Shown: in pieces, positions 10,762 through 24,615 of the stretch
Layout of the letters: the number at the start of each line of letters is the position of its first letter
Numbering within the stretch: the first letter of the stretch is position 1
From: a virus
Direction: 5' to 3' (one strand)
Length of the DNA stretch: 26,905 bases
Virus record (IMG/VR): IMGVR_UViG_3300047564_003517
Location: 1 to 26,905 of that record
Made by a program: the position numbers and the translations under genes
Notes under the pieces: generated by a model
Told to the model about the DNA's origin: nothing
The model's database searches: none
Seen by the model: only the letters and a program-made list of their open reading frames with translations

Positions 10762-10935
10762 ATGGAAGTTTTCACTGTGGCAGAATTTCAAGAACGTTTT
10801 GACGAACTGATTGAAAGAGTGGAAAACGGAGAGCATTTAGGAATAGTAGACGAGAATGGTAAGGCAGCAGTTATGATACCTGCGGATGATGACTTTGTGC
10901 GAATACACACTGAGTGTAATAACGAAGCATCATAA
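10762..10935 (+). CDS. Phd/YefM-like antitoxin, no toxin partner
   Basis: This 57-aa protein reads MEVFTVAEFQERFDELIERV then ENGEHLGIVDENGKAAVMIP. It follows the Phd/YefM antitoxin pattern: a short beta strand, a helix 'ARxxFxELLxxVExGE', then a strand ending in 'G(K/R)xxAVxIP'. The family is a DNA-binding antitoxin that neutralises Doc, YoeB and related toxins. Here the C-terminal toxin-binding tail is short (about 15 acidic residues) and no toxin gene lies next to it; the next feature is a tRNA. It may protect the infected cell against a host toxin, or act as a repressor of the islet promoter. The family call comes from the pattern and has not been searched. Confidence 0.65.
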   Translation: MEVFTVAEFQERFDELIERVENGEHLGIVDENGKAAVMIPADDDFVRIHTECNNEAS

Positions 10936-10941
10936 CCGCAA

Positions 10942-11013
10942 GGGAGCATAGCTTAATGGTTAGAGCGGCCTGCTTATAACGGGTTAGTCTGGGTTCAACT
11001 CCCAGTGTTCCTA
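10942..11013 (+). tRNA. tRNA-Ile (anticodon UAU)
   Basis: A 72-nt cloverleaf. The acceptor stem pairs GGGAGCA (10942-10948) with TGTTCCT (11006-11012), with A at 11013 as discriminator. The D stem is GCTT/GAGC, the anticodon stem GCCTG/CGGGT with loop CTTATAA, and the T arm CTGGG-TTCAACT-CCCAG. The anticodon TAT is at 10975-10977 and reads AUA. Most bacteria read AUA with a CAU tRNA modified to lysidine, so UAU is uncommon. CCA is not encoded. Confidence 0.85.
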
Positions 11014-11097
11014 TTGGGTACAACAAGGAACGTTGTATTAAACGAAGGGTCCCCTCTGCTGAATCGTAGATTATCGTGGTCAGACACCCTCGCCCAA
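11014..11097 (+). other. Structured 84-nt spacer between two tRNAs, possible decayed tRNA or small RNA
   Basis: The ends pair: TTGGGT (11014-11019) with GCCCAA (11092-11097). Inside are ACAAC/GTTGT (11020-11024 with 11032-11036, 7-nt loop), AGGGT/ACCCT and a hairpin TCTGC/GTAGA around TGAATC. The length and end pairing resemble a tRNA, but no T-loop sequence of the GGTTCGAATCC type exists, so it is not called as a tRNA. Confidence 0.35.
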
Positions 11098-11100
11098 AAT

Positions 11101-11173
11101 GCTGGTTTAGCTCTCTGGCGAAAGCACTGCCCTCATAAGGCAAGACAGGTCGGTTCGATCCCGACAACCAGCA
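11101..11173 (+). tRNA. tRNA-Met (anticodon CAU)
   Basis: A 73-nt cloverleaf. The acceptor stem GCTGGTT pairs perfectly with AACCAGC (11166-11172); the discriminator is A at 11173. The anticodon loop is CTCATAA with CAT at 11134-11136, and the T arm is GTCGG-TTCGATC-CCGAC. A G-C pair at 1-72 argues against an initiator tRNA. It could be elongator Met or a lysidine-modified Ile; a UAU tRNA is present already, which favours Met. The 27-43 pair is a C-A mismatch. CCA is not encoded. Confidence 0.88.
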
Positions 11174-11174
11174 C

Positions 11175-11203
11175 TTGCCGTGGTTCATAACTTATGATAG
11201 AAT
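11175..11203 (+). promoter_or_regulatory. Possible sigma-70 promoter downstream of tRNA-Met
   Basis: TTGCCG (11175-11180), a 17-nt spacer and TAGAAT (11198-11203) match the consensus at 4/6 and 5/6. The transcript would begin before a small hairpin at 11218-11233 and run toward tRNA-Leu. Confidence 0.4.
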
Positions 11204-11217
11204 CCAGTGGGGCATCT

Positions 11218-11233
11218 ATCAAACGGTTTTGAT
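11218..11233 (+). other. Small hairpin in the non-coding stretch before tRNA-Leu
   Basis: ATCAAA (11218-11223) pairs with TTTGAT (11228-11233) around CGGT. The 127-nt stretch 11174-11300 holds this hairpin and two promoter candidates and no ORF that I can support. Confidence 0.35.
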
Positions 11234-11258
11234 TTAGTCTCACAAACACACGGCATTC

Positions 11259-11287
11259 TTGACCACTACAACTCTTTGAGTTATAAT
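11259..11287 (+). promoter_or_regulatory. Sigma-70 promoter for tRNA-Leu
   Basis: TTGACC (11259-11264), a 17-nt spacer and TATAAT (11282-11287). The expected transcription start (about 11294) is only a few nt before the tRNA-Leu 5' end at 11301. Confidence 0.8.
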
Positions 11288-11300
11288 GGTCTCACATCAC

Positions 11301-11386
11301 GGGCGAGTGATGAAATTGGTTAGACATCTCAGACTTAAAATCTGACGGGCATTGCGCCCATGCGGGTTCGAGTCCCGCCTCGCCTA
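11301..11386 (+). tRNA. tRNA-Leu (anticodon UAA)
   Basis: An 86-nt class II tRNA with a long variable arm (CGGGC/GCCC around 11346-11360). The acceptor stem GGGCGAG pairs with CTCGCCT (11379-11385), with discriminator A at 11386. The anticodon stem is TCAGA/TCTGA with loop CTTAAAA, TAA at 11336-11338. The T arm is GCGGG-TTCGAGT-CCCGC. It reads UUA, a codon common in the AT-rich late genes. CCA is not encoded. Confidence 0.92.
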
Positions 11387-19010: not shown

Positions 19011-20468
19011 ATGAAAAAATTCATTGTTCTCGGTTCTGGAACCGCTGGATTGATTGCTGCAGGTATGATAAAGAGATACTGGGGCGATAAAGTCCAGGTC
19101 TCTTTATATTATGATGCTTCTAGAAAAAACATAGCAGTTGGTGAAAGCACAACACCCATAATTCATTTGTTTTTGAACGCTATGGGTCTCACCACTGCCG
19201 ATTTAATTCGAGATTTGAATGTAACTGTAAAATTAGGAATTAATTTCAAAGACTGGATTCCTGGTACAGAATATTTTCACGGATTTCAAGAAGTTGCTTT
19301 CTATGGAGAACCCGATAACTCTACTGCAATCTATTCAATTCCAAATGATTGTTATGATGGTGGGTTATTATACAATGAAGCGACTACTACCCTACCACAG
19401 AAACAATTTGAGTATATTCACGCTCTACACATAGACACTCAAGATTTTTCAAATTATATGTTTGAAAAACTGAGCGATGAAATTGATTTCATAGATGATG
19501 TTGCCGAAAAGATTAACATCAAAGACAATAAGATTGAAAGTATAGACTTTAAAAATAATGGTAACGTAACCGCTGACTTTTATATTGATTGTTCTGGTTT
19601 TAGTTCACTTCTTATCAAAAATCTAGAACCAAAGTGGGTTGATATCCTAGAATATTTGCCTATTGATAGGGCAATTCCACAACAAGTTCCTTATGATTTT
19701 GAAGAAGTTCCATCATATACACTGGCAGAAGCGACAGATAATGGATGGATATGGCAAATACCAATCGGTAATCGTTATGGAACTGGTTATCTTTACTCTT
19801 CCAAATTTACAACTGATGAAGAAGCAAGAGAAAAATACAATGCTTGGTTGTTAGAACGATTTGGAGTTGAACTAAAGACCGACAGAATTATTCATTACAA
19901 ACCTGGATATTATGATCAAGCGTGGATGAGTAATTGCTTGGCAGTAGGTTTATCAAGTGGTTTTGTTGAACCATTAGAATCGACAGGTATTCATATTATC
20001 GTAAAACAATTGCACGATTTTATTGAACTAAACTCTAATCTAACTTTTTTAGAGCACAATCGAAAAAGATTTAATGAAAATAACTTAAAGACTTATGAAA
20101 CCATAGTTGATTTTATTTGTCTTCACTACAATACTAACAGAACTGACTCTGAGTTCTGGAAATATATGACTATTAATAAGAAAAAGTGGGTAAAAGACTT
20201 TGACGAGAAATGTAAAAATGAGTTCTTAGATAGATTTGGTTTGGGAGATAATCCATCTAATTTCTTTTGGCCACTTGATAGTTTTATTCAAGTTGCTAAT
20301 GGTCTGCAAATGTTTAACAAAAAATCTATTTGCGAATATCTAGATTCAAAAAGTACCAAAAATGAGATCTTAAATATGGTAAAAGAAAATTATTCGTATA
20401 ATCAACTGAAAAAATCTGAAAACCAGAGAGTATCACATAAAGAAATTATAGACTCAATTCATAAATAA
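19011..20468 (+). CDS. Flavin-dependent halogenase (Trp halogenase family, VirX1-like)
   Basis: This 485-aa protein is a complete flavin-dependent halogenase. The FAD-binding GxGxxG (GSGTAG, residues 8-13) is at the start. VGESTTP (43-49) and K74 in TVKLGINFKDW match the active-site Lys of PrnA/RebH (K79). The family motif WxWxIP is at W246-I-W-Q-I-P251. PLESTG (321-326) carries the Glu (E323) equivalent to PrnA E346. FICLHYNTNRTDSEFW near 368-383 is also typical. These enzymes use FADH2, O2 and halide to form HOX, which Lys carries to the substrate. A viral member, VirX1 of cyanophage Syn10, is known to iodinate varied substrates. The gene lies between fibre genes, in the same late unit, and all key residues are intact. 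The substrate cannot be told from sequence. Confidence 0.92.
   Translation: MKKFIVLGSGTAGLIAAGMIKRYWGDKVQVSLYYDASRKNIAVGESTTPIIHLFLNAMGLTTADLIRDLNVTVKLGINFKDWIPGTEYFHGFQEVAFYGEPDNSTAIYSIPNDCYDGGLLYNEATTTLPQKQFEYIHALHIDTQDFSNYMFEKLSDEIDFIDDVAEKINIKDNKIESIDFKNNGNVTADFYIDCSGFSSLLIKNLEPKWVDILEYLPIDRAIPQQVPYDFEEVPSYTLAEATDNGWIWQIPIGNRYGTGYLYSSKFTTDEEAREKYNAWLLERFGVELKTDRIIHYKPGYYDQAWMSNCLAVGLSSGFVEPLESTGIHIIVKQLHDFIELNSNLTFLEHNRKRFNENNLKTYETIVDFICLHYNTNRTDSEFWKYMTINKKKWVKDFDEKCKNEFLDRFGLGDNPSNFFWPLDSFIQVANGLQMFNKKSICEYLDSKSTKNEILNMVKENYSYNQLKKSENQRVSHKEIIDSIHK
20460..20467 (+). promoter_or_regulatory. Late promoter motif CATAAATA
   Basis: A full match 18 nt before the adhesin-like gene, overlapping the final codons of the halogenase (CAT AAA TAA). 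Confidence 0.7.
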
Positions 20469-21598: not shown

Positions 21599-21934
21599 AT
21601 GTCTGACGAAAAACAGTATCCTTCTCTTGGGCAACAAGCAAAAAATCTTGCTAATTTTTCTTGGGAACTTGTAAAGTATATCCACGAAAATCATAATAAT
21701 GTGTTATTTGTATCTGATGATGTTTATAAGCAAAGAACTCAGATTTGCAAGTCTTGTGAAAGATTTGATGATATGGAAAATAAATGTATGGAGTGTGGTT
21801 GCTACATTCCTGCAAAAGCAAGAGTTATTCTTGATTCTTGTCCATTGAATAAATGGGGTGCTGATGAAAATGCTTGGCAAGAAAAGTTTGAAAAAATAAC
21901 TGACGAACTTGACAAGAAGCAAGAAAATCAGTAG
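21599..21934 (+). CDS. Small zinc-ribbon protein (111 aa, DUF6171-like)
   Basis: The protein has a helical N-terminal part (LGQQAKNLANFSWELVKYI) and a cysteine cluster CKSCERFDDMENKCMECGC followed by C-PLNKW about 15 residues on, which fits a rubredoxin/zinc-ribbon knuckle (CxxC...CxxCxC...C). Proteins of this form occur in many T4-like cyanophages; I recall the family name DUF6171 without having checked it. It lies behind a late promoter at the end of the structural cluster and before a strong terminator. Its function is unknown; a small metal-binding assembly or packaging factor is possible. Confidence 0.75.
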   Translation: MSDEKQYPSLGQQAKNLANFSWELVKYIHENHNNVLFVSDDVYKQRTQICKSCERFDDMENKCMECGCYIPAKARVILDSCPLNKWGADENAWQEKFEKITDELDKKQENQ

Positions 21935-24094: not shown

Positions 24095-24412
24095 ATGCTC
24101 TCTACGCAGTATCGGTTGAGACTGGAAGCAATCTGTGAGAAGATTGTTCTTCACGAAGAGGTAAGTTTATCCGACATCATATGGGCAGAGAAGTTGGCAA
24201 AAGCAAATCGGTCTGCTGGGACTATGCTCCGTCAGGCAAGACGTAAAGCAGAAAATCCCAATATGGATGAGATGGATGATTTTCTAAACTCAATGGACAT
24301 TGGTGGTTTAGGACACGAAAGATTTGGTAGAAGAGGATTTGATAGCCCTGATGAACTACACGATTGGTTTAAGCGTGATGATGACGAAACCGATTGGAGG
24401 ACTCGGGACTAA
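24095..24412 (+). CDS. Conserved hypothetical protein (105 aa)
   Basis: The N-terminal 50 residues (YRLRLEAICEKIVLHEEVSL then SDIIWAEKLAKANRSAGTML) are helical with a basic patch (RQARRKAE). The C-terminal half is acidic (FKRDDDETDWRTRD). Similar proteins are common in cyanophage small-gene regions, without assigned function. Its TAA shares its last base with the next ATG (TAATG). Confidence 0.75.
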   Translation: MLSTQYRLRLEAICEKIVLHEEVSLSDIIWAEKLAKANRSAGTMLRQARRKAENPNMDEMDDFLNSMDIGGLGHERFGRRGFDSPDELHDWFKRDDDETDWRTRD

Positions 24413-24615
24413 TGAAGTCATTTCAAGAGTTTCTATCGGAAGAAGAAAAAGCATCAAAAACAACAGCAAAGTATCAGAATGAACCAAAGGGCAATGAAAA
24501 ATGCTCTAATTGTAATATGTGGAGAGAACCTAATGCCTGCACCGCTGTAAAAGGTAAGATTTCACCTGATGGTTGGTGTAAGTGGCATCAGTATGATAGA
24601 AAGAATAAGACTTGA
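24412..24615 (+). CDS. HiPIP-like iron-sulfur protein with T4-type capsid-targeting N-terminus
   Basis: A 67-aa protein from the ATG at 24412 (an upstream in-frame ATG at 24394 lies in the preceding gene and would hide the leader). The start MKSFQEFLSEEEKAS closely matches the capsid-targeting leader of T4 internal proteins (MKTYQEFIAEA), including the LxE/IxE-type site cut by the gp21 protease; here LSE is residues 8-10. Residues 20-60 resemble high-potential iron-sulfur proteins: C31-x2-C34-x8-C43-x6-I-x3-G-W-C56. This fits the HiPIP signature except for His instead of an aromatic residue at the end. HiPIPs bind one [4Fe-4S] cluster and carry electrons. It may be packaged with DNA and injected. 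Neither the cluster nor packaging is proven. Confidence 0.6.
   Translation: MKSFQEFLSEEEKASKTTAKYQNEPKGNEKCSNCNMWREPNACTAVKGKISPDGWCKWHQYDRKNKT

Follow-up and report, generated by a model that had tools for sequence, protein, structure and literature searches.

A HiPIP-family protein behind a capsid-targeting-like leader in a T4-like cyanophage: a candidate packaged and injected electron carrier

Why does a T4-like cyanophage encode a small HiPIP-family protein whose N terminus reads like the leader of a T4 internal head protein, and might that leader take the protein into the virion? We addressed this question in a 26.9 kb virus record (26,905 nucleotides, taken whole and called the window here) from a T4-like, freshwater-type cyanophage, whose nearest isolate is the Synechococcus phage S-SRM01 (Kyanoviridae, Serangoonvirus) from a Singapore reservoir. 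Taken as a whole, the best explanation, to which we assign a probability of roughly 0.6, is a T4-type packaged, cleaved and injected HiPIP with a protective redox role. The preliminary description of this DNA had placed the gene at 24412-24615, and direct reading of the window confirmed these coordinates, with an ATG at 24412, a stop codon at 24613-24615 and MKSFQEFLSEEEKASKTTAKYQNEPKGNEKCSNCNMWREPNACTAVKGKISPDGWCKWHQYDRKNKT as the encoded protein. The locus comprises the following features:

24095..24412, + strand: upstream open reading frame (ORF), the stop of which overlaps the HiPIP ATG (ORF reading)
24396..24401, + strand: GGAGGA ribosome-binding site of the HiPIP gene (direct reading)
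24412..24615, + strand: HiPIP-family gene, 67 aa, with N-terminal leader (ORF, ribosome-binding site, Pfam, PioC match, dN/dS)
24412..24441, + strand: capsid-targeting-like leader MKSFQEFLSE, residues 1-10 (T4 match; L8/E10 conservation; pLDDT ~52)
24451..24591, + strand: HiPIP domain, residues 14-60 (pLDDT ~90; best PDB matches all HiPIPs)
24472..24474, + strand: Tyr21, equivalent of the conserved HiPIP tyrosine (invariant in 24/24, alignment A2)
24502..24504, + strand: Cys31, predicted cluster ligand 1 (invariant)
24511..24513, + strand: Cys34, predicted cluster ligand 2 (invariant)
24538..24540, + strand: Cys43, predicted cluster ligand 3 (invariant)
24577..24579, + strand: Cys56, predicted cluster ligand 4, with W55 before and W58 after it (invariant GWC; HiPIP-like aromatic pair)

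Translational coupling to the upstream ORF (24095-24412) is possible, and sequence similar to this ORF is present in many, but not all, homologous loci. Against the best explanation stands the position of the HiPIP gene, which lies outside the late structural block and adjoins small genes. A T4-type late promoter (NATAAATA) occurs within 300 bases upstream of the gene in 3 of 49 distinct loci and is not conserved, and thus lends no support to late timing. Elsewhere in the window, an orthologue of an annotated flavin-dependent halogenase (19011-20468; QPX48017 in S-SRM01) sits among the tail-fiber genes, a small ORF downstream of an adhesin gene (21599-21934) shows a four-cysteine pattern, CKSCERF...CMECGCYI, with spacing that is not HiPIP-like, and three tRNA genes (Ile-TAT, Met-CAT and Leu-TAA; 10942-11386) are found beside an ORF resembling a Phd-type antitoxin (10762-10935).

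Sequence and predicted fold both place the window protein genuinely within the HiPIP family. The preliminary description had noted an almost complete HiPIP cysteine signature, and this observation proved sound: the Pfam HIPIP profile (PF01355) scored the protein at 23.3 bits against a gathering cut-off of 22 (E 8e-5) and was also above cut-off in 6 of 7 related phage records, and the spacing of Cys31, Cys34, Cys43 and Cys56, C-x2-C-x8-C-x12-C with GWC at the end, is identical to that of PioC from Rhodopseudomonas palustris TIE-1 (6xyv). PioC, the smallest known HiPIP (PMC7462912), is also the closest solved relative, with an E value of 8e-10 from the single sequence and 5.7e-17 from a profile of 24 phage sequences, where it was followed by 3h31, 1isu and 1hlq, all of them HiPIPs. 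No PHROGs profile matched the protein. The four cysteines are invariant among 44 close and 24 diverse sequences; across the 24 diverse phage sequences Tyr21, V46, G54 and W55 are invariant as well and W58 is conserved, W55 and W58 together matching the aromatic pair that HiPIPs have around the fourth cysteine, at Cys4-1 and Cys4+2/3 (PMC7462912). The structure prediction that had been suggested as a check agreed with the sequence matches. An AlphaFold2 model reached a pLDDT of ~90 over residues 11-60 and ~52 over the leader, which lies outside the fold; in a Foldseek search of the PDB its best 18 matches were all HiPIPs, and VIA-align gave Z scores of 7.5 to 1isu (49 residues, 1.1 A) and 7.3 to PioC (54 residues, 2.1 A), with unrelated rows dropping to 3.2. 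The HiPIP family is defined by a [4Fe-4S]3+/2+ cluster with a potential of +50 to +500 mV, and from what is known of the family we consider it highly probable that the cysteines of the window protein hold a [4Fe-4S] cluster.

The gene is conserved, leader included. S-SRM01, a cultured phage of Synechococcus KCZYC6, carries an orthologue that is 86% identical and has the same leader (QPX48026; BFVD A0A879R316); it is listed as hypothetical in GenBank and under an automatic HiPIP-profile name in UniProt, and we found no published discussion of it. Among isolate records such proteins are very few overall, S-SRM01 being the sole clear case by tblastn. A scan of IMG/VR identified 87 relatives, and in the 80 of these that were retrieved all four cysteines are kept, as is the leader except in one sequence cut at a contig end. 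Across 50 distinct nucleotide sequences, dN/dS was 0.048 for the gene and 0.055 for leader residues 2-13, low values that indicate a conserved gene in which selection on the leader is about as strong as that on the HiPIP domain.

The leader stands where a cellular HiPIP would carry its export signal. HiPIPs are assembled in the cytoplasm and then exported through the Tat pathway (PMC7462912), and most of 21 cellular relatives from a genome collection have a twin-arginine signal directly before the HiPIP domain, whereas in the window protein, which lacks an RR motif, MKSFQEFLSE occupies this position. In other stand-alone phage relatives the protein begins directly at the domain, which makes the leader an addition. 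Cellular relatives in a scan of bacterial and archaeal genomes were mainly Proteobacteria and Campylobacterota; none was titled cyanobacterial in that pattern-limited scan. Three control genomes, Synechococcus elongatus among them, did show some signal with the HIPIP profile, although only one of the three exceeded the cut-off, so the domain may also be present in host genomes.

The resemblance to T4 that the preliminary description had pointed out was borne out against the T4 genome (NC_000866), in which the leaders of the internal proteins IPII and IPIII both read MKTYQEFIAEA. Over the ten residues of MKSFQEFLSE, six are identical to MKTYQEFIAE and the other four are conservative; IPI, as read from the same genome, starts MKTFKEFTS and has ITEA later on. 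In T4, this capsid-targeting sequence brings proteins into the prohead and is removed by gp21, and it also works on foreign proteins (PMC9958956, PMC3012670, PMC7411985). A prohead-protease cut is predicted after Glu10 (L-S-E) in the window protein. Conservation of the leader, too, held up beyond the low dN/dS among close homologues: a set of 10 divergent HiPIPs with leaders has Glu10 throughout and Leu8 in almost every member, the one from L141 (FTE) lacking the leucine, but varies elsewhere in the leader (FLNE, FLEE, LLTE, FLAE, LLEE), as would be expected of an L-x-E protease site. One difference counts against the best explanation, as T4 IPII and IPIII have an alanine after the cut whereas the window protein has a glutamate after the predicted one.

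A search for the same leader on other genes, which had also been proposed, was run on S-SRM01 and returned three genes besides the HiPIP gene. Of 353 called genes, 4 begin with a strict form of the leader, which is absent from all 70,859 interior positions; the other three carriers are QPX48173, QPX48223 and QPX48235. QPX48173 (102 aa) lies within the terminase/sheath block of S-SRM01, and its orthologue in a second phage contig begins with MKSFKEFLSE. QPX48223 is a cytidyltransferase with the leader MKNFHQFITEA, the S-SM1 orthologue having MKKFSAFLNEA, and this T4-GC190 cytidyltransferase has been detected in purified S-SM1 virions (PMC3037559). At the gp21 position of S-SRM01, QPX48181 (MW015081 135233-135883; L290:5334-5984) is annotated as a primosomal protein; by PHROGs it is the head maturation protease, and it is 60% identical to S-SM1 gp21. 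In two further contigs, L211 and L204, the HiPIP gene is found among small ORFs with leaders such as MSFKQFVTEA, MSFKQFFTES and MNKDAQFLAEAY. The small-ORF runs there (L211:2856-6351 and L204:2901-7557) share short leaders over their first 10-15 residues (MINKDAKLLAEAY and MNKDIHLLFEAY alongside the first of these), and, judged from sequence, they are likely clusters of packaged internal proteins.

HiPIP-like domains in other phages provide a second connection to virions. A DNA pattern for the HiPIP motif, run on IMG/VR, gave at least 111 open-frame matches; these counts are lower bounds from a biased sample that contains near-duplicates, and shares within it should not be taken as rates. Those of the matches listed that have the HiPIP tyrosine ahead of the first cysteine divide into 25 members of the close family, 32 further small proteins and 46 located in longer ORFs; the tyrosine is missing in 8, most of which are chance matches. 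Among the matches listed, the domain is found on phrog_5939 tail proteins in 13 contigs, many of them closely related (L111, L112, L113, L122, L123, L129, L132, L133, L140, L144, L159, L191 and L196), and is fused to portals (L104, L154, L166), prohead proteases (L108, L121, L173, L208) and cytidyltransferases (L127, L169, L176), with one case each of an RNA polymerase beta homologue (L155), an HNH protein (L136) and a kinase/phosphatase-like protein (L139). No functional family was assigned to several of the long HiPIP-bearing ORFs, and two contigs, L118 and L139, have a cytidyltransferase gene next to or close to the HiPIP-bearing one. The fusions to virion proteins link the HiPIP domain to virions by evidence that does not depend on the leader.

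Some of these proteins have architectures of their own. The phrog_5939 tail proteins carry the HiPIP-like domain at the extreme N terminus (e.g., MSFVVHRVSKSAARYTDAGGREKCGYCRFF) and no capsid leader, an apparently common arrangement. Giant polyproteins in L127, L169, L174, L176 and L212 combine cytidyltransferase, ParB-like and HiPIP domains, to which L169 adds an amidoligase-like one, and the RNA polymerase beta-like protein of L155 (377-5242; more than 1600 aa) contains a LAGLIDADG insertion as well as its HiPIP-like domain, which lies around residue 271. Matches in Eggerthella phage PMBT5 and in DSL-LC01, a phage of Actinomycetia with a HiPIP-like domain in a protease, fell below the Pfam HIPIP cut-off and are weak analogues only. 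The preliminary description had offered the tuning of redox poise in a photosynthetic host as one role for the protein; we do not favor a role specific to photosynthesis, since phages of non-phototrophs, DSL-LC01 (below cut-off) among them, have HiPIP-like domains as well, fused to proteases, portals and tail proteins.

We propose that the gene encodes a HiPIP converted into an internal head protein of the T4 type. Its first 10 residues would serve as the capsid-targeting sequence by which the folded protein is taken into the core of the prohead, and a gp21-type protease would then cut after L-S-E to leave a 57-residue HiPIP. The mature protein with its [4Fe-4S] cluster would lie among the packaged DNA and enter the cell together with it, and the cluster would serve as a high-potential one-electron acceptor or donor, in the cell or already in the head. 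In the weakest step of this scheme, it would protect either the DNA or the initial stage of infection from oxidative damage. We infer packaging, cleavage, injection and the cluster from T4 and HiPIP biochemistry. Packaging in particular is likely, given the leader match to T4, the gene-start statistics, the virion-detected cytidyltransferase, the conservation of L-x-E, the leader standing where cellular relatives mostly carry a Tat signal, the gp21-type protease gene of S-SRM01 and the HiPIP fusions to virion proteins; the protective redox role is a tentative suggestion about which we are rather doubtful. The main text of the S-SRM01 paper contains no virion mass spectrometry, and we found no virion proteome for S-SRM01 or the window phage.

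The main rival accepts packaging and takes the HiPIP fold to be a compact module, stapled by its cluster, that has a structural or docking role in virions and does not carry electrons. It draws on the occurrence of HiPIP-like domains on very different virion proteins (tail, portal, prohead protease and cytidyltransferase polyprotein) and on the structural Fe-S clusters known in phage tail-tip proteins; the window protein, however, is stand-alone and keeps the redox-tuning Tyr21, W55 and W58 together with the PioC spacing, and we judge such a module unlikely here. Zinc, or no metal at all, in place of the cluster would make the protein no redox protein, and small C-x2-C proteins do often bind zinc, but with a HiPIP match that is specific in both sequence and fold, and no zinc protein among the top fold matches, this is very improbable.

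The two other alternatives turn on what the leader and the cargo do. An ordinary auxiliary metabolic gene would supply an unpackaged cytoplasmic electron carrier during infection, its leader bearing a resemblance without a targeting role; cyanophages carry many redox genes, with ferredoxin, glutaredoxin and peroxiredoxin genes in S-SRM01, and the HiPIP gene lies outside the structural block. Against this, the leader evolves at a dN/dS of 0.055, is found in S-SRM01 at 4 of 353 gene starts and at no interior position, occurs on a family with a virion-detected member and keeps its LxE in divergent HiPIPs, which leaves an unpackaged carrier with little probability. Slightly less probable still is that the packaged protein acts like T4 IPI and inhibits a host defense or enzyme, its HiPIP fold providing no more than a scaffold. 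T4 internal proteins have only their leader in common and are diverse anti-restriction proteins (PMC3012670), and leadered small ORFs cluster in L204 and L211, but internal proteins engaged in an arms race diversify, whereas the HiPIP gene has a dN/dS of 0.05 and keeps its cluster site. We therefore retain the packaged, cleaved and injected HiPIP as the preferred reading. A wider extension of it would have the virions of tailed phages generally equipped with HiPIP-type redox modules, stand-alone and injected in the cyanophage, fused elsewhere to portals, prohead proteases, tail proteins or packaged enzymes. The virion would then have an electron-transfer or redox-sensing function of its own, acting on DNA or the cell at infection; this extension is speculative and on balance improbable.

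In the open-access literature that we searched, no paper on a phage HiPIP was found (the matches were unrelated), nor were the two elements that we regard as new, the combination of leader and HiPIP and the recurrent fusion of HiPIP to virion proteins. If the preferred reading is true, a phage HiPIP with a capsid leader in place of its export signal would be, to our knowledge, the first electron carrier found to be packaged, and the repeated fusion of HiPIP to head and tail proteins suggests that redox chemistry in virions has been overlooked. T4 internal proteins are present at ~360 copies (PMC9958956); packaged at that number, with four Fe atoms per copy, the HiPIP would contribute more than a thousand Fe per particle, which bears on the iron content of phages.

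HiPIPs are periplasmic carriers of bacteria, and PioC shares with the window protein the fold, the C-x2-C-x8-C-x12-C spacing, the tyrosine and GWC, the two domains being ~40% identical. In photoferrotrophy, PioC serves as an electron carrier at +450 mV (PMC7462912). HiPIPs reach the periplasm by Tat export, whereas the window protein has a capsid-targeting-like leader and lacks a Tat signal. The internal proteins of T4, which are textbook knowledge, have an N-terminal leader of ~10 residues (MKTYQEFIAE in IPII and IPIII) like that of the window protein. They are small, non-essential, packaged and trimmed by gp21 (PMC9958956, PMC7411985); the T4 reviews consulted do not present the mature portions as Fe-S proteins, whereas the cargo of the window protein, for which we infer packaging, is a HiPIP. 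The T4-GC190 cytidyltransferase of cyanomyoviruses has a leader similar to that of the window protein and is fused or adjacent to HiPIP domains in other contigs, although its own domain is a nucleotidyltransferase unrelated to the Fe-S protein. Siphophage tail-tip proteins such as lambda gpL also place Fe-S clusters in virions, but they differ in fold and location, being parts of tail assembly, whereas the window protein would be a small HiPIP packaged with the DNA.
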